Origin: Methanobrevibacter sp. | GTDB taxonomy: Archaea > Methanobacteriota > Methanobacteria > Methanobacteriales > Methanobacteriaceae | DNA: 64,000 nt | Assembly: GCA_017553445.1 (NCBI GenBank) | Contig: JAFZMD010000068.1 | Coordinates: 1 to 64,000 of the forward strand | Direction of reading: 5' to 3' | Shown here: in pieces, positions 6,325 to 62,003 of the stretch | How positions within the stretch are numbered: the stretch's first letter is position 1 | How the letters are laid out: each line of letters begins with the position of its first letter | Notes under the pieces: generated by a model | Databases searched by the model: none | What the model saw: the letters and a program-made list of their open reading frames with translations, nothing else | What the model was told of the DNA's origin: nothing | Position numbers and translations under genes: made by a program

Positions 6325-9228
6325 TTAAGACAATTCCCTAATTAATTCACGAACCATTTCATTGTTTTTATCCAGTTTAGAGGCTTTTCGTGCATATTCA
6401 ACAGCCTTTGGAAAAACTCCGCCCATCCTGTAGACAAAACCCATCAATGCAGTTGCTTCAACATGAGTATCGTCAATAGTCAGCAGTTCTTCAAGCAGTT
6501 CTCTTGCAGTATCCAAGTCTCCCTGATTAAAGAGATCATATGCCTCTTCATATAATGTATCCACATCATCAAATGAGTTACCGGTATCTGATTCCTGAAA
6601 ATCTTCTTCTTTTTCATCAATGCTTTTATGAGTGAATTCTACTTTTGCAGGGACAAACTGCAGTTTTTGCAATAATGCGGCGGCATTTGTATTAGATGGA
6701 GAAATTTTAAGTGCTTTTCTTGCATAATATGTTGCAACATCTTCTATTCCCTGTTCATATAAGACATGTGCCATCAGCAGATTTGCATTCAAGTTATTGG
6801 CATCATCATTGAGTATTTCATGAAGCAAGTCCTTTGCCTGTGAGTATAAATGTTGAGTGTAGAAATCCAAGGCCTGAGCATATAAGTCATCATCATGAGT
6901 CTTAACTTCCTCAGTCACTATTTCAGAGTTATTCTTTTGGCTTTCATCAAGCATATATTTTAAAATATGTTCAGTTGCCTTTTTATGAAGAGGCTTGTTA
7001 TCGTTTCCGCATTTCGGTGAATAAATGCATGATGGACAGCCGTTTCTGCATTTGCAGTTTTTAATCAGGTCAAGGGTTGACTCCAACAGCTCCACAAATA
7101 CGTCAACAGCCTTTTCACAGATTCCTATTCCGCCTTCATAGCCATCATAGATAAATATCGTTGCCTCTTCCGTGTCCTTGTGATATGCCGTTGACATTCC
7201 ACCTATATCGAAGCGGTCACACATCACCTGAAGCGGGAAAAGCCCAATTAATGCATGTTCGGCTCCATGAAGGCCACCTTCAAATACCTCATCGTCATCA
7301 GGATATGAATTTTTCAATTCCTCTTTTACGCTTTCAGGTATAGTAAACCATAACCCTTTTGTTTTGAATTTAAGGGGCGGCAAATCCAGAGGATACATTC
7401 CAAGCACTCTTGAATGCTGCATCTTTTTGTATTTATAATAGTCTTTCTTTACGTTGAGCTCTCCGAAATGAATTGTCAAATCACCGTATTTTCTTTTAAA
7501 TTCCTTTGATACAACATTTACTTCAGTATCGTTTAACACCATCGTATGATAATCCACATTTTTCTTGGATACATTGACGTAACCTGATTTTAAATTAATG
7601 TTATCAACAGTATAGGTCTCTCCCTTATTTATGAGAATTGCTCCCTCATGGGCTTCACGATATACCTGTGAGCGTTCCATTGTCTCCAGCAGTCTGCCGT
7701 TGTTCATTATCTTAAATTCCTCTGATGAAATCTGGTCCAGGGAATGGTCGAATGCAGGATTATCATCATATTTATATGTATAGTTTCCAACGCTTGAGAG
7801 GTACAAATCATCCCTTTCAACCATTTCATCCAAAACGTCATCAGATATATTAAAGTAGGTTAAAGCCTCTCCTTTTTTCAACGGCAGTTCATTGGCCGCA
7901 CATAGCAAGTGAGCTTCCTGCAGTATCGGATTGGACAAATCTATAATGGCCTTTTCCTGAGGTTTTGAGAAAAATGCCTTTGGATTGTTCATGTAATATT
8001 GATCCAGCTGATTTTCAAATGCAAGTAAAATTGCAAGTGATTTCTGATTGCTTCTTCCTGCCCTTCCGCTCTGCTGCCAGGTTGACATCATCGTTCCCGG
8101 AAAACCTGATATTATAACCGCATCAAGAGATCCTATGTCAATACCAAGTTCCAGCGCATTTGTACAGGTAACACCCAGATATTTACGTGTCTTTAATCCT
8201 TCTTCTATTTCACGCCGCTCTTCTGGCCTGTAGCCTGCACGATATGCTGCAATACGGGAATTGTCCAGCTTGCCGTCTGTCAGTTTGGCATCCTTTTTTG
8301 ACCACATCGCAATCAGTTCAGTGATTTTACGTGAAACGGTAAAGCATAATGTCTGAATGTTTTTAAGCATAAGATAGCGAAATATGTCTGCTGTCACCAC
8401 ATGAATTGATGGTGCTGATGATTCTGCAGAATTTCTATAATTTTTAAAGGGATTGAATAAAATGAAATCTTTTTCTCCGCTCGGAGATGTATCATTATCT
8501 ATTAAAGTAAATTCCTCACCAGTCAATTTGTTTGCAAGCTCCAAGGGGTTTGCAAGTGTTGCTGATGATAAAATAAATTTTGGATCTGACCCGTAGAAAT
8601 TGGCAATTCTTTTCAATCTCCTGATTAAAAAAGCCACATTAGAACCGAAAACACCCCTGTAATAATGTGCCTCATCTATTACAATATACTTTAAATTGCG
8701 GTAAAATCTCTCCCACTGATGATGCCAAGACAGAATCAGATGCAGCTGATAGGGATTTGTCAGAATAACCCTTGACTTTTGGCGGATATTATACCTTTGA
8801 GACTTTGGAGTGTCTCCGTCATATGTTCTTGGCTTGATGTCGATACCCAAATCCTTTTCCAAATCCTTTAAAACATTCAACTGGTCATTCGACAAGGCCT
8901 TTGCAGGATAAATATAAAGGGAGGTTGCCTTTTCATCCTCAATTAAGGAATCCATAATCGGCAAATTGAATGCCAGAGTTTTACCTGAAGCGGTTGTTGT
9001 AGTCAAAATTACATTTTCATCCCTTTTAATGGCTTCATAAGTATCGGCCTGATGATTATATAGTTTTATTTCTTTCAAATCAAGATAATCAACGATTCTG
9101 TCATTTAAATCAGGTATTTTTTTGAAACTGGCTTTTTTAGCAGGAATAGTTTCAACATGAGCAATGTGGTCTCTAAACCTAACATCATTTTTAAATGCAT
9201 CAATCGGAGAATCTAACATAATAATCAT
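6325..9228 (-). CDS. MrfA/Hrq1-like DEAD/DEAH helicase with DUF1998 and TPR tail
   Basis: The 967-residue superfamily 2 helicase resembles bacterial MrfA (YprA) and eukaryotic Hrq1, which act on DNA crosslinks and other lesions. The N-terminal half holds TTTASGKT (Walker A), DEAH, SSATLANP and a helicase C domain ending QQSGRAGR. A MrfA-type zinc domain (DUF1998) follows around residues 650-760, with CKCRNGCPSCIYSPKC supplying four cysteines. The last 170 residues consist of TPR-like helical repeats (ALDFYTQHLYSQAKDLL; LYEEAYDLFNQGDLDTARELL), an addition not in the textbook MrfA layout. Downstream Met codons near the N-terminus leave the start uncertain by a few residues. The gene is divergent from the UvrD-like helicase gene. 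The helicase family is firm, the substrate inferred. Confidence 0.88.
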   Translation of the reverse strand: MIIMLDSPIDAFKNDVRFRDHIAHVETIPAKKASFKKIPDLNDRIVDYLDLKEIKLYNHQADTYEAIKRDENVILTTTTASGKTLAFNLPIMDSLIEDEKATSLYIYPAKALSNDQLNVLKDLEKDLGIDIKPRTYDGDTPKSQRYNIRQKSRVILTNPYQLHLILSWHHQWERFYRNLKYIVIDEAHYYRGVFGSNVAFLIRRLKRIANFYGSDPKFILSSATLANPLELANKLTGEEFTLIDNDTSPSGEKDFILFNPFKNYRNSAESSAPSIHVVTADIFRYLMLKNIQTLCFTVSRKITELIAMWSKKDAKLTDGKLDNSRIAAYRAGYRPEERREIEEGLKTRKYLGVTCTNALELGIDIGSLDAVIISGFPGTMMSTWQQSGRAGRSNQKSLAILLAFENQLDQYYMNNPKAFFSKPQEKAIIDLSNPILQEAHLLCAANELPLKKGEALTYFNISDDVLDEMVERDDLYLSSVGNYTYKYDDNPAFDHSLDQISSEEFKIMNNGRLLETMERSQVYREAHEGAILINKGETYTVDNINLKSGYVNVSKKNVDYHTMVLNDTEVNVVSKEFKRKYGDLTIHFGELNVKKDYYKYKKMQHSRVLGMYPLDLPPLKFKTKGLWFTIPESVKEELKNSYPDDDEVFEGGLHGAEHALIGLFPLQVMCDRFDIGGMSTAYHKDTEEATIFIYDGYEGGIGICEKAVDVFVELLESTLDLIKNCKCRNGCPSCIYSPKCGNDNKPLHKKATEHILKYMLDESQKNNSEIVTEEVKTHDDDLYAQALDFYTQHLYSQAKDLLHEILNDDANNLNANLLMAHVLYEQGIEDVATYYARKALKISPSNTNAAALLQKLQFVPAKVEFTHKSIDEKEEDFQESDTGNSFDDVDTLYEEAYDLFNQGDLDTARELLEELLTIDDTHVEATALMGFVYRMGGVFPKAVEYARKASKLDKNNEMVRELIRELS

Positions 9229-9294: not shown

Positions 9295-9310
9295 ACTTAT
9301 CAAATGCTCT
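9295..9310 (+). promoter_or_regulatory. Shared upstream promoter element, copy 1 (uvrD-like gene)
   Basis: ACTTATCAAATGCTCT is one of four window copies of A[CG]TT[AG]TCAANTGCTCT. It is about 10 bases upstream of an AT-rich TATA-like stretch and 62 bases before the uvrD-like ATG. It lies in the divergent region shared with the MrfA-like helicase and could affect both genes. Confidence 0.5.
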
Positions 9311-9372
9311 CTCAATTAATTTATTAATAATTAAATCAATACATATAAATATTGAAAATTTTAGGGATTGCA

Positions 9373-11814
9373 ATGATTAGTTATGAAGAGTTTGAAGATA
9401 TAGTTGTAAATATTTTGAAAAGAGATATTTCATCCAACCATGACCAGAAAAAAGCTATTCTTTCAAAGGCAGATGAAGGACTTTTTATTGTAGCGGGTCC
9501 CGGATCCGGAAAAACAACCGTAATTGTACTTAAAATATTAAAATACATTTTTGTAGATGACATTAAAGCAAGTGAAATACTTGCAACAACATTTACAAAA
9601 AAGGCTGCAGATGAGCTGTACTCACGTATTCTCGGATGGGGAGATGAAATAAAAAATTATCTCATAGATAATGCTGGAGATGATTTTGACAGATTAATTG
9701 AACTTAACAGAATTGATTTTAACCAACTGACAATAGGAACTACAGACAGTATTGCTCAAGAGCTTTTGCGTGTCCATAAAGAGCCTGGAACAAACCAGGA
9801 AGTTGTTATAGAGGAGTTTGTCGCTAAATTTGCAATGGTTAGAATCCTATTGAAAGATAATCGTTATCTTGATGAAAACCTGCAGGGCTATCTTAAAAGC
9901 TTTACTAAAAGAGATAAATTGAAAGAAGCTTCCCAAATGAGTGAACTTCTATTGAATCTAAAAAACAGGATGTATTATGACCAGATTGACTTTGATGAAT
10001 TTTACAATAATGTCGGTGAGGGCAGCGGTGCAAGAATAGCCCTTGACTGCATAAAGGAATATGAAGAGGAACTGAAAAGCCGAAACATTATTGACTTTAC
10101 AATGCTTGAATCCAAATTCCTGGATTCGCTGAGAAACAATAAACTGGATATCTTTTTGGATGATTTGAAAATCATTTTAATTGATGAATACCAGGATACC
10201 AATCTAATTCAGGAAGAGATTTACTTTACAATGGCCAAATCAGCGATTGAAAATGGTGGAAGCATATCCGTTGTAGGAGATGATGACCAATCCCTTTATC
10301 GTTTTAGGGGAGCGACAGTGGATTTATTCACGAATTTCAAATCAAGAGCCAAAAACAAGCTTGGAATTGACGTTGAAGAAATCAACTTAAGAACCAATTA
10401 CCGTTCAAGCAGGAATATCATCAACCACTGCAACCAGTTTGTCGAACTTGACAGAGCATATCAAAGCGCAAGAGTGGAAGCAAAACCTAAAATCATTGCT
10501 CCGGAGCTTGAAAAATACAATATGCCCATTTTGGGATTGTTCAGAAACAATCTCCAAATGTTATCTAAAGACTTGGCGAAATTAGTCAGCGATTTGATTA
10601 ATGAAGGCGAAACAACATTGAAAGTCAATAGGGTCATTGACGGAGAATACTTTGAAAAACTTGAAAAATGCAAGACCCCTCAGGAACTAAAACAGCTGAA
10701 ACAGGAAAGTGCTAAAAAGGCAAGATGGATTGACAACATCAACATCAAATTGGATGAAAAAGACGGGTCCGCATCAGATATGGCAGTTTTGACATATTCA
10801 CCGAAAGAAATGAGCTATGGAGTTCATACGTTAAACGGATATCTGAGAAATCAGCTGAAAAAAATAGAAAAACCAATTGAAGTGTTTAATCCCCGTGGCC
10901 GTGACTTGCAGGAAATCAAGGAAGTTGCAATATTCTGCGGATTGATGCTTGAATGCATTGACCCGGAATCCAAAATACAGGATTCAGATAAACAGATACC
11001 CAATCTCGGCAGAAAAAATATGCAGCGCTGGAGATATGAGGCAAGAGAGTATCTCAAATTAAATCCCGAACCTCATGAACCCTTTGACTTGAATACATTC
11101 GTTATAGATTGGCAGAGGAGAAATCCGAGAGGATATGACAAATGGCCCGACAGAGCCAATCTGATGGAACTTGCATATAAGCTGGTTACCTGGCTTGACT
11201 TCCTGCAGGAAGATGCTGAGGGAGTAGTTTATCTTGAAGCAATAACACAATCCATTACGCAGACAGGATTTTTCAACAAATACTCTGCAAACATTGTATT
11301 TACCTCCCCAGAATCTGAAAAGGCATCAATTCTTGAAGCAATCTGGAACATTTTCCTGCCAATAGCTACAGGAGACGTTTCAATAGATGAAGCATTGCTT
11401 GAGACTCTGCCTGCAAACAGACTGAATATAATGTCCATTCACCAGTCAAAAGGTCTGGAATTTCCATTGGTCATTGTTGATGTCGGTTCCAAATTTAAAA
11501 ACAATGACATCAGAACACAGAATCTGAGATTTCCAAAAAAAGAACCTGAACATACCATCATGGAAGAGAGCATACGAAAATACAGTGAACTTGGTGAAGA
11601 CGAAAGAAGTGAAAAGGACAAATCATTTGATGACTTGACAAGACTTTACTTTGTTGCATTTTCAAGAGCAGAACATATCCTAATATTGACCGGACTTAAT
11701 AAGGCAATCGACGGCTATTCATTTAAGCAGAAGCACAAGTCAATACCTAATGTTGCCCTAGGCTGGAGCAGAGACGAACATCAGAAAGGATTTAAAGAAA
11801 TTTATTTAGTATAA
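9373..11814 (+). CDS. UvrD/Rep-family superfamily 1 DNA helicase
   Basis: The 813-residue ATP-dependent helicase has the UvrD motif set in order: GPGSGKTT (residues 42-49), TFTKKAA, LIDEYQDTN (Walker B), GDDDQSLYRFRGA, NYRSS, SIHQSKGLEFP and LYFVAFSRAEHILIL. The middle region is longer than in minimal UvrD and may hold accessory 1B/2B domains. A TTG at 9352 is in frame, but the ATG at 9373 with AGGGA upstream is preferred. The stop at 11814 lies inside the ribosome site of a PD-(D/E)XK nuclease gene, so the two are co-translated. This looks like an AddAB-type helicase-nuclease split over two chains. Role in double-strand break processing is inferred. Confidence 0.88.
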   Translation: MISYEEFEDIVVNILKRDISSNHDQKKAILSKADEGLFIVAGPGSGKTTVIVLKILKYIFVDDIKASEILATTFTKKAADELYSRILGWGDEIKNYLIDNAGDDFDRLIELNRIDFNQLTIGTTDSIAQELLRVHKEPGTNQEVVIEEFVAKFAMVRILLKDNRYLDENLQGYLKSFTKRDKLKEASQMSELLLNLKNRMYYDQIDFDEFYNNVGEGSGARIALDCIKEYEEELKSRNIIDFTMLESKFLDSLRNNKLDIFLDDLKIILIDEYQDTNLIQEEIYFTMAKSAIENGGSISVVGDDDQSLYRFRGATVDLFTNFKSRAKNKLGIDVEEINLRTNYRSSRNIINHCNQFVELDRAYQSARVEAKPKIIAPELEKYNMPILGLFRNNLQMLSKDLAKLVSDLINEGETTLKVNRVIDGEYFEKLEKCKTPQELKQLKQESAKKARWIDNINIKLDEKDGSASDMAVLTYSPKEMSYGVHTLNGYLRNQLKKIEKPIEVFNPRGRDLQEIKEVAIFCGLMLECIDPESKIQDSDKQIPNLGRKNMQRWRYEAREYLKLNPEPHEPFDLNTFVIDWQRRNPRGYDKWPDRANLMELAYKLVTWLDFLQEDAEGVVYLEAITQSITQTGFFNKYSANIVFTSPESEKASILEAIWNIFLPIATGDVSIDEALLETLPANRLNIMSIHQSKGLEFPLVIVDVGSKFKNNDIRTQNLRFPKKEPEHTIMEESIRKYSELGEDERSEKDKSFDDLTRLYFVAFSRAEHILILTGLNKAIDGYSFKQKHKSIPNVALGWSRDEHQKGFKEIYLV

Positions 11815-11824
11815 GGTGGAATTT

Positions 11825-13018
11825 ATGAGATTATCATCAAAATCAAAACCATATATGATTCCGGAATACAGTCTGACCGGAGACTTGTTATCATATTTGA
11901 CCTGCGGCTTGCAATACAGATATCAAAATAAAGGAACTCTTCCCCCTTCAATGCCAGTGCAGCTTTGGTTTGGAGAGTTTATTCATGGAGTGATGGAAGA
12001 GGCCTATATGAAATGGGAAAGCGATAAGACCTCTTTTCCATGGGACTGGAAAGAAGACATAAGGCCGATTGAAGATATTATCGATTTAAGATTACAAATC
12101 AGAGGACTTTATCCTCCTGCCAATCATTTCTTTACAATCAATCATCCGGATATAGAAATGACCATTGATGATTTGAATGAATATGATCACAAAAAATTGG
12201 CCAGTGCAAGAGCTGAAAAGGCCATTAACGTTTGGGGTTCCGATTTATTCCCAATGATGGATTCGGCTGAAGTATTAATCAAAGGTTTGAGGGATATGCC
12301 CTATACTAAAGATGATAAGCGTTCAAAATATTATGGCATTAATGGAGTCATTGATGTATTGAGCCTTGTCAATATCAAAGACGACAATAAGATTGTCAGA
12401 TACCTGAAAGCCAATGAAGAATTCAATAAAATAGTCAAACAATATAATGAAGACGAATATGAAATCATAATTGACTATAAAGGTATGAAAAGGCCCCCAT
12501 GCAATGTTTCGGCCAGCAACAATGAAAATTGGGATTATCATGAAAGACAAATCCTAACATATTCCTGGCTTAGGCAAAAGCAGGAAGGCAAAAAGCCTGT
12601 TGCCGGAATAATCTTTTACCTGAACGAACTGGTTCCGTCAATTGAGGATTTAAAATTGATTAAAGAAGATTTATACTATCACTTAACTGATGTTGGTGAT
12701 GGTGACGAATATAAAGAAGATATTGAATTAATCGAAAATTGGACTGAAGATGACGATATGCCCAAATTAAGTGAAAAATTCAAAATGGACAGATCAATCA
12801 GAATTATTCCAATTGATGATGAAAAAATCAATGCTGCACTGGAAAAATTCGATAAAGTGGTTGAAAAGATAGAAACATCAATAATAAAAGAGATTAATGG
12901 CTGTAAAATTCAGGATGCATGGACTGCTGAGGCAGAAGAGAGAACCTGCAGTGCATGTGATTTTAAGACTTTTTGTAAAAATAACAAAAACAAAAACAAA
13001 GAATTTAAAATTCCTTAA
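11825..13018 (+). CDS. PD-(D/E)XK nuclease, RecB/Cas4-like with Cys cluster
   Basis: The product is about 397 residues. The nuclease core shows GVIDVL followed by EIIIDYKG, matching the Asp and Asp-x-Lys metal and catalytic positions of RecB/AddB/Cas4 nucleases. The C-terminus ends with ERTCSACDFKTFC, cysteines that with C28 or C36-type partners could form the iron-sulfur staple of this group, although only some of the four expected cysteines are clear. The N-terminal PEYSLTGDLLSYLTCG resembles the entry helix of such nucleases. A GTG at 11816 lies within the AGGTGG ribosome site, so the ATG at 11825 is the likely start. It probably processes DNA ends with the upstream helicase. Confidence 0.78.
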   Translation: MRLSSKSKPYMIPEYSLTGDLLSYLTCGLQYRYQNKGTLPPSMPVQLWFGEFIHGVMEEAYMKWESDKTSFPWDWKEDIRPIEDIIDLRLQIRGLYPPANHFFTINHPDIEMTIDDLNEYDHKKLASARAEKAINVWGSDLFPMMDSAEVLIKGLRDMPYTKDDKRSKYYGINGVIDVLSLVNIKDDNKIVRYLKANEEFNKIVKQYNEDEYEIIIDYKGMKRPPCNVSASNNENWDYHERQILTYSWLRQKQEGKKPVAGIIFYLNELVPSIEDLKLIKEDLYYHLTDVGDGDEYKEDIELIENWTEDDDMPKLSEKFKMDRSIRIIPIDDEKINAALEKFDKVVEKIETSIIKEINGCKIQDAWTAEAEERTCSACDFKTFCKNNKNKNKEFKIP

Positions 13019-17491: not shown

Positions 17492-17522
17492 AAAAATAGT
17501 AAAAAATTAATTTACTATTTTT
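17492..17522. terminator. Bidirectional terminator between the TIR-like gene and rad50
   Basis: AAAAATAGTAAA (17492-17503) is the exact reverse complement of TTTACTATTTTT (17511-17522), with a 7-base loop. It ends in T-runs on both strands and sits between two convergent genes, with the rad50 stop codon in the loop. Confidence 0.7.
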
Positions 17523-20257
17523 GAAATTCCATTTTCTTTTTCTACCTTAATCAGATTATCCGCAGCACTTTCAAGCTGATTTTCATGGGTTACAATAATC
17601 ATTTGAGGAAGCAAGGACATTTCTTTTAAAAGATTAATCAATTCCTGTCTTCTGGAATCATCCAAATGAATTGTAGGTTCATCCAATAAAATAGTTTCCA
17701 AATCACCTTTAGCCATGGATTTGGTGATACCTAGCCTTAAAGCCAATGCAATAGCTATTTTTTCACCGCCACTGACCATTGACATGGAAGATTCTCCTTC
17801 AGGACCTCTGACAACCACATTATACTCATCATCAATTATCAAATCAGAATAATTGAAATTAAAATCATCAAAGAATTTTTTAGTGTTTTTCTGTATAATA
17901 GGTCTTGAATTATTCCTTAATTCCTTTTGAATACCGTTTTTACCATACAATTCACGAATATCCTTTAATAAAACCAGGTATTGTGAAATGTTTTCATATT
18001 CTTTTTGGAATCTATCATTATTTTTGATTTTTTCAGCCAGACTCTTATGAACATTGATAAGCTCCCTAGCCCTTCCCTTAATTTCGGACAGTTCATTTGT
18101 AAATGATTCATGCCTTCGGACATACATTTCATCACGATAAATTATCTGTTCATATTTTTCTTTATCGTAAGTTGATGCATCAATTTTATTTTGAATGATT
18201 TCCAATTGATTATTGCAAACACCAATATCCTCCTTTACAGATTCAAAGTGAGCAGTAACAGTTTTTTTATTTTGAACAAAACCTTTAAGCTGATTATATT
18301 CCTCATTTTTAGCTTTTAAATCATCAATGCGCTGTTTGAGTTCAAGATTATCCATGTCCCCACTTAGGTGAGAGTCATTTTCAATAGCCAATTTAATATT
18401 TTTAACGTGAACATCAATTTCATTTTTTATCTGTTTCAACTTATATTCAGATTCCGTTTGACTGCCTAAAACATCCAAAGCACCTTTAGCCTGATTATAA
18501 TCATCATGATCCTGTTTATAGCTGTCACGGTTTTCTTTTTCCTTTGCAATTTCCAAAATCAATTCACCTAACTTATTTCCGATATGTTCTTTAGCATCAA
18601 GACCCTGATCGATTTCATTTAAGCGTTCCAAGTCTTTTTCAAGATTTGAGAATTTATATTTGTATTCCAAAATATCTTCGGATAATTTTTTAACCTTGGA
18701 TTGCTTTTCAGTGAAACTATCTTTGTTTTTAGTGAATAAACGAATGTTTTCTTCATTTTCTTCAATTGATTTAGTATTTTCTTCAATTTCAGTTTTATAC
18801 TGAGTGATTAACTCTTCTTTTTTAGCATCACTGATATCTGACTGGCAAACGGGACATTTATTTTCCACATCAGCCAGTTCTTCTAACGGCTTTTCACATG
18901 AAGCAATGGTCTGTTTAAATGCTACAATTTCTTGTTTTTTAGAATTGATTTCATCAGTTAAATCCTCTATTTTTGCTGATATTTCATCTGAGAATTTATT
19001 AGTAATGTCCCCCAGTTTCTTCAGGTCATCAACGCTAGCCAAGTCATCTTGTGAAACGCCATAATCCAATAATTTTTCTTTTGAAACAGAAAAAAAGCTT
19101 TCAATGTCATTTCGATCAGCTTCAATTCCTTTTAAAAGATCTTTTTTATCCTTTTCAAGGCTAGTGATAGTGGCTAATTGCTTTTCCAAATCTATTTTTT
19201 TATTGTTTAAAGTTGAAATTAACTCATCAGATTTCAAATAATCATTATATCCCTGTTTCTTTTCATGAATTGATTTTTTCTGCTCTTTAATTGAATCAAT
19301 TTTGTCTTCAAGTTCAATTTCAGACTCTTTTAGAGATTGAATACTGACAACTGATTTTTCAAAATCAAGATAGACATCTAATTTTGATACATATTTTTCC
19401 AAACGTGCAATCTCTTCTTCTGCTTCACGTATCTTATCCAAACTTTCTTGAAGAGTATGTTTATCTTTTTCTAGCCTTTCAAGAGTTTGCTTTTCATTAT
19501 TAAAGTTATTCATTTGAGTTTCATAGATTTCCTTTTCACGTTCCATGTTACGTTTACTTTCGGAAATCTCTTCTATCAGCTGTTTGACTTCTTCAATTTG
19601 AGATTCGAGTTCATGACCCCTACTTTTCATTTCATTGAGTTCATTGGTCTTTACTTTATATTCTTCATCCAATGCAGATTTGGAATATAGTTTACCCTTA
19701 ATTTCAGATAATTTATTTTCATATTCACTGATTAATGGAGATAAATTTTTCCATGCGTTTTCTAGAGAGTCAAGACCCAATAACTTGCCGATTAAACGTT
19801 TTTTCTCTGCAGGTGTTTTATCTACAAGTTCTGCTATTTCACCTTGCCTTACATAAATAGCATTTAAAAACAAATTAGCATCCATGTCCAATATTGCCTG
19901 AATATTGTCTGCAACTTCTTTTTCCCCAGAACAGATAGACATGAATTCACTGTCGCTGGATGTTTTTGTTAGAAGTCTGGATACTGTTTTGGATTTTGTT
20001 TTATCGCGAACGATTCTATATTCTTTTCCTCTTGAGATGAAATCCAATTCCACACTCATATTTTCAGTATTATTGCGAACCAAATCACCTAATTTTCCTG
20101 CAGTATGCTGTTTGTATAATGCGAAACTAATAGCTTCGAAAATAGAGGATTTACCAGCACCATTTTGACCAACAATAACTGTGATTCCTTTATCGAAATT
20201 AATTATTTCATTTGAATAGGACTTAAAATTTTTTAATCTTAAACGCTTAAAAATCAT
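17507..20257 (-). CDS. rad50: DNA double-strand break repair ATPase Rad50
   Basis: The 916-residue SMC-like ATPase forms the Mre11-Rad50 complex that senses and processes DNA ends. The Walker A site GQNGAGKSSI is near residue 32. Long coiled coils flank a central zinc hook CPVC near residue 470, which dimerises the complex. The C-terminal lobe holds the signature SMVSGGEKIAIALALRLG, then Walker B ILLDEPTIHLD. Size and order match archaeal Rad50. It begins 3 bases after mre11 ends, so the two are transcribed together and presumably translated in a coupled way. Confidence 0.96.
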   Translation of the reverse strand: MIFKRLRLKNFKSYSNEIINFDKGITVIVGQNGAGKSSIFEAISFALYKQHTAGKLGDLVRNNTENMSVELDFISRGKEYRIVRDKTKSKTVSRLLTKTSSDSEFMSICSGEKEVADNIQAILDMDANLFLNAIYVRQGEIAELVDKTPAEKKRLIGKLLGLDSLENAWKNLSPLISEYENKLSEIKGKLYSKSALDEEYKVKTNELNEMKSRGHELESQIEEVKQLIEEISESKRNMEREKEIYETQMNNFNNEKQTLERLEKDKHTLQESLDKIREAEEEIARLEKYVSKLDVYLDFEKSVVSIQSLKESEIELEDKIDSIKEQKKSIHEKKQGYNDYLKSDELISTLNNKKIDLEKQLATITSLEKDKKDLLKGIEADRNDIESFFSVSKEKLLDYGVSQDDLASVDDLKKLGDITNKFSDEISAKIEDLTDEINSKKQEIVAFKQTIASCEKPLEELADVENKCPVCQSDISDAKKEELITQYKTEIEENTKSIEENEENIRLFTKNKDSFTEKQSKVKKLSEDILEYKYKFSNLEKDLERLNEIDQGLDAKEHIGNKLGELILEIAKEKENRDSYKQDHDDYNQAKGALDVLGSQTESEYKLKQIKNEIDVHVKNIKLAIENDSHLSGDMDNLELKQRIDDLKAKNEEYNQLKGFVQNKKTVTAHFESVKEDIGVCNNQLEIIQNKIDASTYDKEKYEQIIYRDEMYVRRHESFTNELSEIKGRARELINVHKSLAEKIKNNDRFQKEYENISQYLVLLKDIRELYGKNGIQKELRNNSRPIIQKNTKKFFDDFNFNYSDLIIDDEYNVVVRGPEGESSMSMVSGGEKIAIALALRLGITKSMAKGDLETILLDEPTIHLDDSRRQELINLLKEMSLLPQMIIVTHENQLESAADNLIKVEKENGISKIVN

Positions 20258-20259
20258 TT

Positions 20260-21420
20260 CTAATCCTCCTCTACTTCCTCTTCAATAGGATATTTTTCCT
20301 TATAAAATTCATCAATTAATTCCCTAGCATCTTCGGATTTATCTTTTGAAAGTAAATTATATAATTCTGTAGCGAATTTGGTAATGTCTTCATCATCATA
20401 TTTTTCCAATCTTGATGATAAAACTTCAACAGGACCTAATGCATTTTCCTTATCGATGATCAAATCAATGCTTTCTTCGCCAGGCACTTTGAATTTAGGC
20501 CTAATCATCAATGCCAGGTCATCAAGTTCTAATGAAATGATTTCATGTGCTGTGGCAGTTGATGTAACATTATTAACGGTTAAATTCAAAATCGGCTTTT
20601 TATCGAAATCCTTGATTGTCTGCTTTATTGCTTCAATTCCGTTAGCCAAATTGTCATAATCAAGCGTCCTTTCTATGAATTCGCGTGGAAGGTCTATTTT
20701 AATTCTTTCAACAGATGGTTTTTTACCATCCAAATCTACAATAACAAAACCTTTTCCATTTTTCCTGTAATCTGCAAGTTCTGTTGTTTTCCAAACTTCA
20801 CTGGATCCGGGATAAACCAATTTACCATTTCCAAAATCATCATTAATAAAATTGTGAAGGTGTCCCATTGCATAATATGTGAAATTGTCCGGAACATCAC
20901 CTATTTCCAATTCATATTGCAAATTAAAGTATTTATCTATACCCTGATGCAATACAAGAATTGATTTTTCATGATTGGCCGCCTTTTTAGACAAATCTGA
21001 GAGTTTATTTTTAAGATTCTTATATTGTGAAGATGGATAATAAGGCAAACCTGCAATGAATACATCTTCATACATATAATTGGTGTTGATTGGACTAATC
21101 ACTTTTAAACCAAACTTTTTAAATAATACCTGTGGAGGAATTGCTCCTTTACGCAGTACACTATCATGGTTTCCTGCAATAGCATAAACTGGAATATTAG
21201 CATTTTTAAGTTTTATCAAACATTTTTGAAATGTTAAAAGTGCTAATGGAGATGGTCTTGAATTATCAAATAAGTCTCCACTATGTATTACAAAATCTAC
21301 TTTCTCTTCTATTATTTTATCAATTATCTTTTCAAACACTTCATAAAAGTCTTTTTCGCGCTCGAATAAACCGAACTGACGATACCCTAAATGAGTGTCT
21401 GCTAAATGTGCAAATTTCAT
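20260..21420 (-). CDS. mre11: DNA double-strand break repair nuclease Mre11
   Basis: The 386-residue calcineurin-like phosphoesterase has the metal motifs in order: ADTHLGYRQ (residues 6-14), HSGDLFDNSRP, AGNHDSV and MGHLHNF. It provides the 3'-5' exonuclease and endonuclease activity of the Mre11-Rad50 complex. The C-terminal acidic region is of normal length for archaea. A 126-base gap with TATA-like sequences separates it from herA upstream, so mre11-rad50 probably has its own promoter but lies in the same direction as nurA-herA. Confidence 0.96.
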   Translation of the reverse strand: MKFAHLADTHLGYRQFGLFEREKDFYEVFEKIIDKIIEEKVDFVIHSGDLFDNSRPSPLALLTFQKCLIKLKNANIPVYAIAGNHDSVLRKGAIPPQVLFKKFGLKVISPINTNYMYEDVFIAGLPYYPSSQYKNLKNKLSDLSKKAANHEKSILVLHQGIDKYFNLQYELEIGDVPDNFTYYAMGHLHNFINDDFGNGKLVYPGSSEVWKTTELADYRKNGKGFVIVDLDGKKPSVERIKIDLPREFIERTLDYDNLANGIEAIKQTIKDFDKKPILNLTVNNVTSTATAHEIISLELDDLALMIRPKFKVPGEESIDLIIDKENALGPVEVLSSRLEKYDDEDITKFATELYNLLSKDKSEDARELIDEFYKEKYPIEEEVEED

Positions 21421-21546: not shown

Positions 21547-23046
21547 CTAATAATCATACCCCAAATCAAGACTCTCTTGTTCTTGATGTTTGATTTCATC
21601 TTCTTCAGACTTACCATATTTTGCCAAATCTCCGATAATATCTAAATCACCACCCGTGCGGCGGCCTTTGAACTCATCAATTTTAACCAATGTAGGCACC
21701 TTGGTCATCAATCCCAAAACAATAGCTTCACCAACATTTAAAGAAGGCAATTGATTAATTAAATCCTTGGATAGGGATTCTGAAGCTGACTGTACATGCC
21801 TTTGGTCTTCCGGCTCGACGAGCCTTAATATAATCATGTTGTTCATCTGTGACAATGCATCATGGTCAACTGTCTTTGGAGACTGGCTGACCAAACATAA
21901 TCCCAAACCAAATTTACGGCCTTCCCTTGCAATCCTTTGAATCCAATGCTTGGATTGAGAATCACGTTTATTTGGAGCCAAAATATGGGCTTCCTCTATA
22001 ACGAAAAATACCGGATGATCTAAAGTTTTATTGGAAGTGCCATGAACAGCATTTTTCCTTCTTTGAAGAGCATTTCTTAAGATATGACTTACAAGAACTT
22101 CAGAAACAGGATCATCTGTTTGGCTCAAATCCAAAACATTGACATGACCGACTTTAATGCTTGTTAAAATATTTCCTTTATTGCTGTCAAATAAATTGTC
22201 ATATTTGTCTTTAGCATCCTCTATCTTATTCATCACATCAACAATCTGCTTATCTGAACCATCTTCCTGTGATTTAACATATAAAATATCATGCATGGCA
22301 TCCAAAAACTTGAAGGTATGCTCAGTTCCTCCCTCAATTTCTTTTTTAGCTTTGTTGAATGCCTGTCTAAAGTGCCTTTCCTGGATGTATGCATTGTTAG
22401 GAATATTGACTAACCTTTTAATTTCATAAAAAGACATGTATGTAGGATTAATTTTAGGCCGAATGACATTAACTTCACCATTTGGGAAATTGGCATCCTT
22501 ATACTCTCCATGCATGTCAAAGACAAATATAGGAACATTATATCCAAGCAATTGATCCATCAATACCGCCACAGTATTTGACTTGCCCGCACCGGTCATA
22601 GCCAGTATTGCCAAATGCCTGTTCAATATTGGATTTCCTTCAACATTGACTTCAATGTCTCTCTGATTGACCAAAGTTCCCAATTTAATTGGATTTTTAA
22701 CTTTAAAGACTTCATTTAAGATTTCCTTATCCGCCAATTTTATTGGCGTTCCTGGAAGTGCGGGAGTTCTTGGAAGCCTTAGATTATCATTGACATCACC
22801 TAAAAGCTTGATTTTGCCCTTAATATAATAATCATTACCTCCGATACGTGCAATTGTTTGGATTGCATCAACATCATGCAAATCAATGTTTAAAGCATCA
22901 TTTCCCCTAACTAAGCTTTCAACCATCCCCAAAACTTTTTTGCCATCATAATCAACAGTCACATATTCGCCAACCTGCGGCATCTTATCTGAAATAAATG
23001 TTAACTCTGATAGAGATATTTCACCGACACAATAACCTACTGTCAT
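21547..23046 (-). CDS. herA: HerA bipolar DNA translocase/helicase
   Basis: The 499-residue FtsK/VirB4-type hexameric ATPase partners with NurA to generate 3' single-stranded tails at DNA breaks. A beta-barrel HAS domain at the N-terminus is followed by MTGAGKSNT (Walker A, near residue 155) and VIEEAHILAP (Walker B). A conserved region RIAREGRKFGLGLCLVSQSP comes next. It begins just after the nurA stop with a ribosome site AGAGGTGATAAG, showing translational coupling. The protein is of usual length. Confidence 0.95.
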   Translation of the reverse strand: MTVGYCVGEISLSELTFISDKMPQVGEYVTVDYDGKKVLGMVESLVRGNDALNIDLHDVDAIQTIARIGGNDYYIKGKIKLLGDVNDNLRLPRTPALPGTPIKLADKEILNEVFKVKNPIKLGTLVNQRDIEVNVEGNPILNRHLAILAMTGAGKSNTVAVLMDQLLGYNVPIFVFDMHGEYKDANFPNGEVNVIRPKINPTYMSFYEIKRLVNIPNNAYIQERHFRQAFNKAKKEIEGGTEHTFKFLDAMHDILYVKSQEDGSDKQIVDVMNKIEDAKDKYDNLFDSNKGNILTSIKVGHVNVLDLSQTDDPVSEVLVSHILRNALQRRKNAVHGTSNKTLDHPVFFVIEEAHILAPNKRDSQSKHWIQRIAREGRKFGLGLCLVSQSPKTVDHDALSQMNNMIILRLVEPEDQRHVQSASESLSKDLINQLPSLNVGEAIVLGLMTKVPTLVKIDEFKGRRTGGDLDIIGDLAKYGKSEEDEIKHQEQESLDLGYDY

Positions 23047-23050
23047 CTTA

Positions 23051-24142
23051 TCACCTCTTCAATTGTTCTCTGTTTGTCGTTTCGTAAATTCTACTGATTT
23101 TTAAAAGTTCATCCACATGTTTATTCGTAATTACCACATCATTATGAGCCTTGTTAAGCAGATAAGGATATCCTTCAGCCGAATCCCTTTTAATGACTTC
23201 AACGATCTCTGTTATTTCATCGTCTTCAGCCCAATAAGGAAGTTCCACTTTCAAAACATTTTTGTTTTCCTCCAACCTCACGTAAAATATTGTAAACCAT
23301 AACTTTTTGAATAAATCATCATAAATGGGAAAAGGAACCACAATATTGCTTTCAACCTTTTTTCTAATGATTTTAGAAATGCCCTGTTTTTCACTAAACT
23401 GGTCCAAAATACCGATATCCGGCGCATTGCTGTGAAACAGGTCATTATTGGATGAAGTTTTAGAAATTGAAATAATCTTTTTATTTTTCTTTAAAACTTC
23501 CTTTAAAACCAATAATTTCTCTATTGATGATAAATAAAGATTATAAACATCATCCATTTCATCATCCTTAAAATCATCTTCGCCTTCACCAGATACATGG
23601 ACATATACTTTCCTTTTTATTTCCGGAAATGACAAATCAAGAGTTGACAAATCATTAATTTCATCTTCAAACAATTTTAAAACTCCTGGAGATAATTGTT
23701 CTTTAATGTCTGAAGGTTGCTTGGCACCTTTAGGATAATGATTCTGCAAATCTCCAAAAATGGATCCGTCAAACAAATAATAGTCAACATCAAATTCATT
23801 GATGGCCTTCAGGCAGCATTTGAGTTCAAATATTGACATGTAGTTTGGAATCAATTCCTTCAGGAAGGGAAGATGTTTGATTTCAAAAATTTCAGACTGT
23901 TCAATGCTTTTCAAATCACCGTCATAAATAATGGCTTCAGCAGATACCGGACAGTAATTAAACATTAGAAACTTTTTAATATTGAAACTTCCATCACCTG
24001 CAGCGATAGAAAACTCTTTTTTACTTTTAGCGAATGGTCTGTCAAACCATTTATCCTTTAGAGAAAAATCACTGGTTTTTTCTGGCTCTGGTTGAAGGTA
24101 TCTTCTATTATTTAGTGCTTTAATATAAAGGGACTTTAACAT
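23051..24142 (-). CDS. nurA: NurA 5'-3' nuclease
   Basis: NurA degrades the 5' strand while HerA pumps DNA through the complex. Conserved features include AAGDGSFNIKKF (metal-binding Asp), YYLFDGSIFGDL and a C-terminal YPYLLNKAHNDVVIT segment typical of the NurA RNase H-like core. A longer frame opens at a TTG at 24196 but would overlap the promoter. The ATG at 24142 has a TATA sequence (TTTATATATA) about 20-27 bases upstream, so the message may be leaderless. The upstream promoter carries one of the four shared elements. The nurA-herA pair is close-packed. Confidence 0.93.
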   Translation of the reverse strand: MLKSLYIKALNNRRYLQPEPEKTSDFSLKDKWFDRPFAKSKKEFSIAAGDGSFNIKKFLMFNYCPVSAEAIIYDGDLKSIEQSEIFEIKHLPFLKELIPNYMSIFELKCCLKAINEFDVDYYLFDGSIFGDLQNHYPKGAKQPSDIKEQLSPGVLKLFEDEINDLSTLDLSFPEIKRKVYVHVSGEGEDDFKDDEMDDVYNLYLSSIEKLLVLKEVLKKNKKIISISKTSSNNDLFHSNAPDIGILDQFSEKQGISKIIRKKVESNIVVPFPIYDDLFKKLWFTIFYVRLEENKNVLKVELPYWAEDDEITEIVEVIKRDSAEGYPYLLNKAHNDVVITNKHVDELLKISRIYETTNREQLKR

Positions 24143-24182
24143 AATAGATAATATGTAAATATATATAAAAAAAATTAGTGGT

Positions 24183-24198
24183 AGAGCAGTTGACAACT
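24183..24198 (-). promoter_or_regulatory. Shared upstream promoter element, copy 4 (nurA)
   Basis: On the minus strand this reads AGTTGTCAACTGCTCT, matching A[CG]TT[AG]TCAANTGCTCT. It overlaps the last two bases of the upstream gene's stop codon and ends about 15 bases before the nurA TATA box, 40 bases before its ATG. Confidence 0.5.
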
Positions 24199-59784: not shown

Positions 59785-59800
59785 ACTTGTCAAATGCTCT
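59785..59800 (+). promoter_or_regulatory. Shared upstream promoter element, copy 2
   Basis: ACTTGTCAAATGCTCT matches A[CG]TT[AG]TCAANTGCTCT. It lies about 10 bases before TTAAATATGTATAAAA and 33 bases before the first ATG of the 59834 gene (54 before the alternative at 59855). Confidence 0.5.
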
Positions 59801-59833
59801 AGCTCTTCACTTAAATATGTATAAAATTAAAAA

Positions 59834-60211
59834 ATGAATCAAGGATTTGGTACTATGATAATAAATTGGAAAGAAGAGATAACAAAAATAGACCCAGATA
59901 TAAAATTCAGAGCACAGGGCGGATGGTTAAAAACCGTGGAAGAGCTAGATAAAAGCGTAACCAACGGATACTCATTAGTGGGGGATTTTGTAAAAGCAGG
60001 CGACTTTGAAGGAGAATACATTGAAGGAATATACCTTGACTGCAACAAAGAGGGAAGTGCAAAAAAACCACAGACCGACTATAGGTTATTCAGATTCAGA
60101 GACGGTAAAGTAAGGTTGCTTGATATGGTTATCGACGCTCAAAGAAACTGGGCACAGGACTTCTGGGATGCCGTTGAGGAGGAAATTGAAACAATCTCTC
60201 CCCAGATATAA
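59834..60211 (+). CDS. Uncharacterised 125-residue protein
   Basis: No family was recognised. The chain is acidic, with no signal peptide or membrane span, and shows FRAQGGWLKTVEELDKSV in the first half and RLLDMVIDAQRNWAQDFWDAVEEEI near the end, a probable amphipathic helix. The ATG at 59834 lacks a clear site, whereas the ATG at 59855 (MIINWKEEI) is preceded by AAGGATTTGGTACT, so either is possible. It has its own promoter with the shared upstream element, and converges on the gene at 60219. The presence of that element near repair genes hints at a stress role, which is inference. Confidence 0.6.
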   Translation: MNQGFGTMIINWKEEITKIDPDIKFRAQGGWLKTVEELDKSVTNGYSLVGDFVKAGDFEGEYIEGIYLDCNKEGSAKKPQTDYRLFRFRDGKVRLLDMVIDAQRNWAQDFWDAVEEEIETISPQI

Positions 60212-61438: not shown

Positions 61439-61454
61439 ACTTATCAATTGCTCT
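61439..61454 (+). promoter_or_regulatory. Shared upstream promoter element, copy 3
   Basis: ACTTATCAATTGCTCT matches A[CG]TT[AG]TCAANTGCTCT. It is followed after 14 bases by TTAAATATTCAA, a probable TATA region, and stands 45 bases before the ATG at 61500. Confidence 0.5.
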
Positions 61455-61499
61455 CTTGCAATTTTCTTTTAAATATTCAATCCCAAAATTAATAATATT

Positions 61500-62003
61500 A
61501 TGCATTTCGACAAAAAGGAATACACAAAATTATTAAGCTACATTCTGTCCCATTGCTATGACAAGCCCCATGTTGGAAAGACAGTCATAACAACAACACT
61601 CTATTTCATAGATTTCAACTACTATGAAGCCTATGGAGAGTCCTTAACGAAAGAAACATACCAAAAACACAAAAAGGGAATAAGACCCAAACACTTTACA
61701 AAAATCACAGAGGAATTGATTGAAAAAAACAAAATACACTTCAGAAAGGAAGCATATTATCACACAACACTGCACAGATACTACCTGACAGAAATACCCA
61801 ACATCAAATTCTCAAACAAAAAAATAAATATCATCGACAGCAGCATGAAACATTTAATAACAAAAAATGCGACAGCAGTAATGAAATACGCAAGTAAAGA
61901 TCCGCCATACAAAAATACCGATTTCAACAAAGAAATAGATTACAATAATGTATATTTTAGGGATTCCAGATATTCAATTAGAAAAAAATATATTAATTTA
62001 TAA
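61500..62003 (+). CDS. Panacea/SocA-like domain protein (DUF4065-like)
   Basis: The 167-residue protein has VGKTVITTTLYFIDFNYYEAYGESLTKETYQKHKKGIRPKHFTKI, which matches the Panacea/SocA-type antitoxin domain (KLLYfaD ... yG.slT ... Y) by eye. In type II systems this domain neutralises varied toxins and is usually next to one. Here the downstream gene is a PUA-domain protein and no toxin is obvious, so it may be a stand-alone regulator or an orphan antitoxin. It has its own promoter with the shared upstream element. No ribosome site is clear, so the message may be leaderless or nearly so. Confidence 0.65.
   Translation: MHFDKKEYTKLLSYILSHCYDKPHVGKTVITTTLYFIDFNYYEAYGESLTKETYQKHKKGIRPKHFTKITEELIEKNKIHFRKEAYYHTTLHRYYLTEIPNIKFSNKKINIIDSSMKHLITKNATAVMKYASKDPPYKNTDFNKEIDYNNVYFRDSRYSIRKKYINL

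Follow-up and report, generated by a model that had tools for sequence, protein, structure and literature searches.

A conserved promoter element very probably marks a shared control circuit for DNA repair genes in the Methanobacteriales

The window analysed here is the whole 64,000-nucleotide stretch at positions 1 to 64,000 of contig JAFZMD010000068.1 from the genome of a rumen Methanobrevibacter sp. (GCA_017553445.1). A preliminary description of this DNA had reported four copies of a short element, each pointing the same way relative to its gene; all four were recovered with 0 mismatches at the positions and on the strands given there, and every copy lies upstream of a gene on its own strand. 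The first of these operator-like elements, ACTTATCAAATGCTCT (9295..9310, + strand), is an exact match whose core is kept 5' of uvrD in relatives. It is followed by a TATA-like box recognised by its sequence, TTTATTAATA (9320..9329, +), the spacing being +9 to +16 across sites, and by a gene for a uvrD-like helicase (9373..11814, +; Pfam UvrD-helicase 8.3e-50, first 479 residues). The gene for a PD-(D/E)XK nuclease (11816..13018, +; Pfam PDDEXK_1 7.9e-11) lies 1 nt past uvrD and the two probably form one operon. A gene for an MrfA/Hrq1-like helicase with a TPR-rich C-terminus (6325-9228) lies divergently to uvrD, the intergenic DNA between the two bearing the element.

On the - strand the element AGTTGTCAACTGCTCT (24183..24198), also an exact match by sequence, overlaps the stop codon of an upstream PcrB-family gene and is followed by the TATA-like sequence TTTTTTTTATATATATT (24158..24174, -) and the gene for the NurA nuclease (23051..24142, -; Pfam NurA 9e-28). 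The start of nurA is the ATG at 24142, 40 nt after the element; a longer listed open reading frame with a TTG start overlaps the element. Three further - strand genes continue an apparent nurA-herA-mre11-rad50 operon headed by the element-bearing nurA, namely those for the HerA helicase (21547..23046; Pfam DUF87/HerA 1.5e-43), an Mre11-like nuclease (20260..21420; Pfam Metallophos 7.6e-18), which lies between herA and rad50, and Rad50 (17507..20257; Pfam AAA_23 and Rad50_zn_hook). The remaining two copies, both exact matches on the + strand, stand before genes whose relatives are preceded by the same element. The first, ACTTGTCAAATGCTCT (59785..59800), is followed by the TATA-like sequence TTAAATAT (59811..59818, +) and a conserved unknown gene (59855..60211, +). 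The product of this gene had been taken as a 125-residue protein, for which 59834 would be the start; comparison with its relatives, which align from the methionine at 59855, makes 118 residues more likely. This 118-residue protein had no match in Pfam, PHROGs or PADLOC, and single-sequence structure prediction gave an unusable model (mean pLDDT 44). The second, ACTTATCAATTGCTCT (61439..61454), precedes the TATA-like sequence TTTTAAATA (61467..61475, +) and a gene for a Panacea-domain (SocA-like) protein (61500..62003, +; Pfam SocA_Panacea 2.4e-08).

The genome as a whole (1.96 Mb in 94 contigs, the window being part of contig C92) was then scanned for the element. The pattern W[CG]TT[AG]TCAANTGCTCT gave 16 exact and eight one-mismatch matches across the genome, compared with a single match at up to one mismatch for the reversed control, and the 11-base core TCAAATGCTCT gave 16 matches against 0. 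With a stricter consensus and up to three mismatches there were 58 matches genome-wide against 21 in the control; the third allowed mismatch adds mostly noise. About 25 of the better matches are of promoter type and at least five lie inside genes, so that the earlier statement that coding genes hold no further copy stands for exact matches in the window and fails for the genome. In place of the four genes first described there are some 25 sites, and of the four in the window two stand first in what appear to be operons. Matches in the genome show a strong promoter bias and not the scatter within genes that would speak against a regulatory site.

The element is also longer than the 16 bases originally assigned to it. 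Sites collected from this genome and its relatives extend it to about 19-22 bases, AATATTA[C/G]TT(T/G/A)TCAAATGCTCT. To avoid circularity, sites were picked by the 11-base core alone and their flanks inspected afterwards. At 134 intergenic exact-core sites, which include orthologues and transposon copies and are therefore not independent, two features that had played no part in the selection emerged, the flank AATATTACTT and, at +9 to +16, a TATA box; at 51 core sites inside open reading frames of at least 140 codons neither this flank nor a spaced TATA box appeared. A TATA-like stretch beyond the element had been described at a distance of 10-18 bases; the stretch is present, and most commonly it starts 9 nt beyond the element. 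The element is asymmetric, non-palindromic and found in a single orientation just upstream of the BRE/TATA at near-fixed spacing.

The genes that follow the element were identified by reading each locus and then scanning the downstream proteins for families. In the genome of the window those for repair, replication and dNTP supply comprise uvrA, uvrD, nurA, hef, a hel308-like helicase, RPA, topoisomerase VI-B, a helix-hairpin-helix and MutS2-like protein, a YoaA/DinG-like helicase and nrdD (anaerobic ribonucleotide reductase). The others encode DUF763, a YdjM-family membrane protein, a PfkB kinase, a Panacea-domain protein, a Panacea-like protein and three unknown small proteins, and several TnpB or TnpB-like genes also carry the element. 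Seven of the 25 promoter-type sites drive transposon genes; of the remaining 18, 10 serve genes for DNA repair, replication or dNTP supply. Since repair and replication genes make up a few per cent of an archaeal genome, this enrichment is far beyond chance. In relatives the targets include hjc, mre11, a DinG/XPD-like helicase, the large subunit of polD, mcm, uvrB, radical-SAM proteins and orc-like genes; the naming rests on reading of the sequences, save for mcm in an element, which was named by a family search. TnpB or TnpB-like promoters with the element were observed at L004, L005, L008, L012, L019, L022 and L023, and at L105, L112, L119 and L149 of the relative G061.

In 15 named Methanobrevibacter assemblies of rumen type the core ahead of uvrD has been retained while the adjacent bases drift, and a site is found before RPA across genera and families; the lack of conservation at orthologues that would have weakened the case was not seen. 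Counts of the core are high, with controls near zero, in the genus of the window (g1) and in genera g10, g2, g7, g9 and g15; genomes of g1 and g10 typically hold ~8 to 35 copies compared with 0-2 in the control. Counts are near chance in genera g3, g4, g16 and g17 and in families f2 and f3. Beyond the Methanobrevibacter-like genera the element drifts to ATTA[C/G]TTNTCANNNGCTC, and this form is found upstream of RPA in g4, g5, g6, g11, g16, g17, f2 and f3. A matrix trained on the window's own species and one close relative only, when applied to other genera and families, scored the RPA site at a shuffle p of at most 0.005 in nearly all non-Methanosphaera genomes that have one; as throughout, site counts from different species are not independent. 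The hef site is kept outside the home genera in g6 and g16 only, most genera being without it. The matrix scan gave no clear site at RPA in most Methanosphaera-like genomes. In two of these genomes a diverged form, about ASTTATCAnnnGCTAC, is present ~135 nt before RPA, and loss of the element in this group was on that account rejected as a clue to the regulator. A relaxed pattern finds a site, down to f2 and f3, before a conserved membrane protein of 58-72 residues encoded next to an orc gene. This single-span protein (L009:1535-1750, L219:854-1030, L103, L131 and L328-L330) is encoded behind the most widely retained copy of the element and is perhaps, as a guess, a damage-induced membrane or division regulator.

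Taken together, promoter bias and conservation at orthologues support the original suggestion that the element is a regulator site controlling a small regulon, although one that extends beyond four genes. The sequence comparisons very probably reflect a DNA repair control circuit and operator shared across the order Methanobacteriales. We consider it likely that the element is the site of a dedicated Methanobacteriales transcription regulator, of activator type, which would control a DNA repair and replication regulon of ~20-30 promoters per genome and respond most likely to damage or stalled replication. The predominance of DNA repair and replication among the targets supports the earlier guess of a DNA damage response, and the presence of TnpB genes from transposons, of a PfkB kinase and of small genes without known function, as well as the lack of a site at some genes in some species, speaks against the regulon reading. 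What the sequence shows is the element with its place, spacing, targets and conservation; activation over repression, DNA damage as the signal and a protein as the ligand are what we infer. The stiff spacing, the upstream position and the asymmetry point to an activator that, bound just upstream of the BRE/TATA, would recruit or stabilise TBP/TFB, in keeping with the general rule that in archaea the sites of activators precede the core promoter (PMC5817253). The gene list suggests that the signal would most likely be damaged DNA or stalled replication. In the literature searched, which covered few subscription journals, neither a methanogen DNA-damage motif nor the 11-mer itself was found.

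The most plausible type of protein as binder of the element, though with a low probability, is one of the Orc1/Cdc6 family. Two Orc1/Cdc6 proteins are present across the order, and both are closer to Orc1-1-type structures than to Aeropyrum ORC2. Short Orc/Cdc6-like proteins (~275-285 residues), apparently without the C-terminal winged helix, were observed behind the element in several genera (L187:1289-2116, L188:1727-2572, L332, L358 and L361). By analogy with Orc1-2 in Sulfolobus, the binder might be the divergent 369-residue paralogue OrcB or another member of the family, a possibility that we regard as rather unlikely. The promoter position and the nurA-herA-mre11-rad50 target are common to Sulfolobus, OrcB is present across the order, the conserved small membrane gene bearing the element is convergent to orcB in many genera, and in several the element also stands before a truncated Orc-like gene. 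The T-variant of the element also weakly resembles the origin box TTACACTTGAAAT (10/13), but this resemblance is not significant (p 0.06-0.6), the element of the window's own species has changed to GTC while its origin boxes have kept GAAA, the Sulfolobus core ANTTTC is unmatched and, in the genomes inspected, the element is absent from the promoters of both orc genes. We favour an undescribed DNA-binding protein over one of Orc type as the binder. Three other readings were rejected. That the element is itself an origin box is not supported, its similarity being at the level of shuffled boxes and showing no co-variation in the window's species; a WYL regulator of PafBC/DriD type is excluded by the occurrence of the WYL domain in 0 of 150 genomes of the group, with positive control genomes; and a conserved second TFB equivalent to TFB3 does not agree with the single TFB (one TFIIB repeat pair) of most element-bearing genomes. 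The origin boxes near the 388-residue orc copy read TTACACTTGAAA, and a cluster of them, TTTACACTTGAAA, upstream of the 388-residue orc gene (L230:2900-3270) is the probable replication origin of the window's genome.

A repressor acting in the manner of LexA, which would block the core promoter until damage releases it, is also conceivable as the protein at this site, since the targets resemble the SOS regulon (uvrA, uvrD, a DinG-like helicase and a YdjM-family gene). We think this unlikely. The element lies upstream of the BRE/TATA at fixed spacing, which is the usual place for archaeal activators (PMC5817253), and it is no palindrome, unlike the sites of most homodimeric repressors. The fixed spacing to the TATA box would equally be expected of a general extension of the core promoter, BRE-like or proximal, with no regulatory role. 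It is highly improbable that the element is of this kind, as it occurs at only ~25 promoters in a genome of ~2 Mb, these are concentrated on DNA repair and replication, and its 19-22 bp far exceed the length of a BRE.

The element is also repeatedly adjoined by mobile DNA. In the relative G064 two 2.26-kb copies of a group II intron (RVT_1, GIIM; RF00029) at L424:1389-3648 and L424:8578-10836 lie antisense before different genes, the 5' end of each coinciding exactly with the element's edge. Introns in this arrangement also lie at L047 and L422, fragments of near-identical introns are found at further sites, and in G061 a related intron (L419:17638-19770), with a protein 59% identical, occupies the same spot, as if the element were a homing site of group II introns. 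The same intron end was seen at the uvrD locus L081. The literature, in which few subscription journals were covered, held nothing relevant on group II introns in connection with Methanobrevibacter. On viral contigs (L377-L418) about 24 of 44 copies of the element lie at most 150 nt from a tyrosine-integrase gene, either upstream of it (35-65 nt) or downstream; the six downstream copies suggest that the viral element may function in attachment and not as a promoter. Both the group II introns and the integrases of viruses appear to target the element. At L081, L083 and L022 the contig ends close to the element, probably where repeated mobile DNA adjoining it has broken the assemblies. On the same piece of sequence as the G061 intron, L419:11958-12447 matches only the first 496 positions of archaeal 16S rRNA, and this gene is possibly interrupted or partial. 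That the element is primarily a landing site, for integrase attachment or group II intron homing, which mobile elements have themselves spread, would account for the abutting introns, the viral copies near and sometimes downstream of integrase genes and the TnpB genes that carry it, but we give this reading hardly any credence, as the element is conserved order-wide at RPA and uvrD without mobile DNA and its TATA spacing is fixed, and a conserved host site exploited by mobile elements is more likely.

A wider form of the activator reading would join these observations, with an order-wide, SOS-like damage regulon run by an undescribed type of archaeal activator, the operators of which double as docking sites for at least two unrelated kinds of mobile DNA, group II introns and tyrosine-integrase viruses; for this combination we judge the case to be evenly balanced. 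In the literature searched, the archaeal DNA-damage transcription network described is that of the Sulfolobales (Orc1-2) only. If the proposal is correct, culturable gut methanogens would allow a direct test of how a second archaeal group, distant from the first, responds to damage, the genes of the response would be named, including conserved small unknown genes, a defined DNA bait would be available for fishing out the regulator and the places at which several rumen-methanogen mobile elements insert would be explained.

Several known systems invite comparison. Archaeal origin recognition boxes (TTACACTTGAAAT in this group) are likewise AT-rich, asymmetric and of similar length, with partial agreement in letters that is within chance; these boxes cluster near orc genes, whereas the element is found at promoters. 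Mycobacteria have an asymmetric site for the activation of DNA damage genes, the RecA-NDp motif, which starts with TTGTCA. The element shares with this PafBC motif a resemblance only, and PafBC regulons differ in that no WYL-domain protein is present in the 150 genomes of the group. The class of targets (uvrA, uvrD, a DinG-like helicase and the YdjM family) and the tie to mobile elements recall the bacterial SOS system, although the element, unlike the LexA box, is not built as an inverted repeat and stands before the core promoter without overlapping it. The Sulfolobales provide a further parallel. In Sulfolobus, DNA damage induces herA-mre11-rad50-nurA within the Orc1-2 network (PMC10470591), the promoters of which have a non-palindromic ANTTTC motif upstream of the BRE, at -44 to -39 (PMC5817253), and in the Sulfolobales this element is bound by Orc1-2 (PMC9738581). 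Both elements are archaeal, non-palindromic, in one orientation and just upstream of the BRE/TATA, and both groups count nurA-herA-mre11-rad50 among the targets, by induction upon damage in Sulfolobus and from sequence here. Their target sets differ, with nucleotide excision repair, helicases, RPA and topoisomerase in the methanogens and the ups/ced DNA transfer genes and tfb3 in the Sulfolobales. As the methanogen consensus, A[C/G]TT(T/G/A)TCA within an element of 19-22 bp, is without ANTTTC, it is not the Orc1-2 element of Sulfolobus, but by analogy it may work in a similar way.
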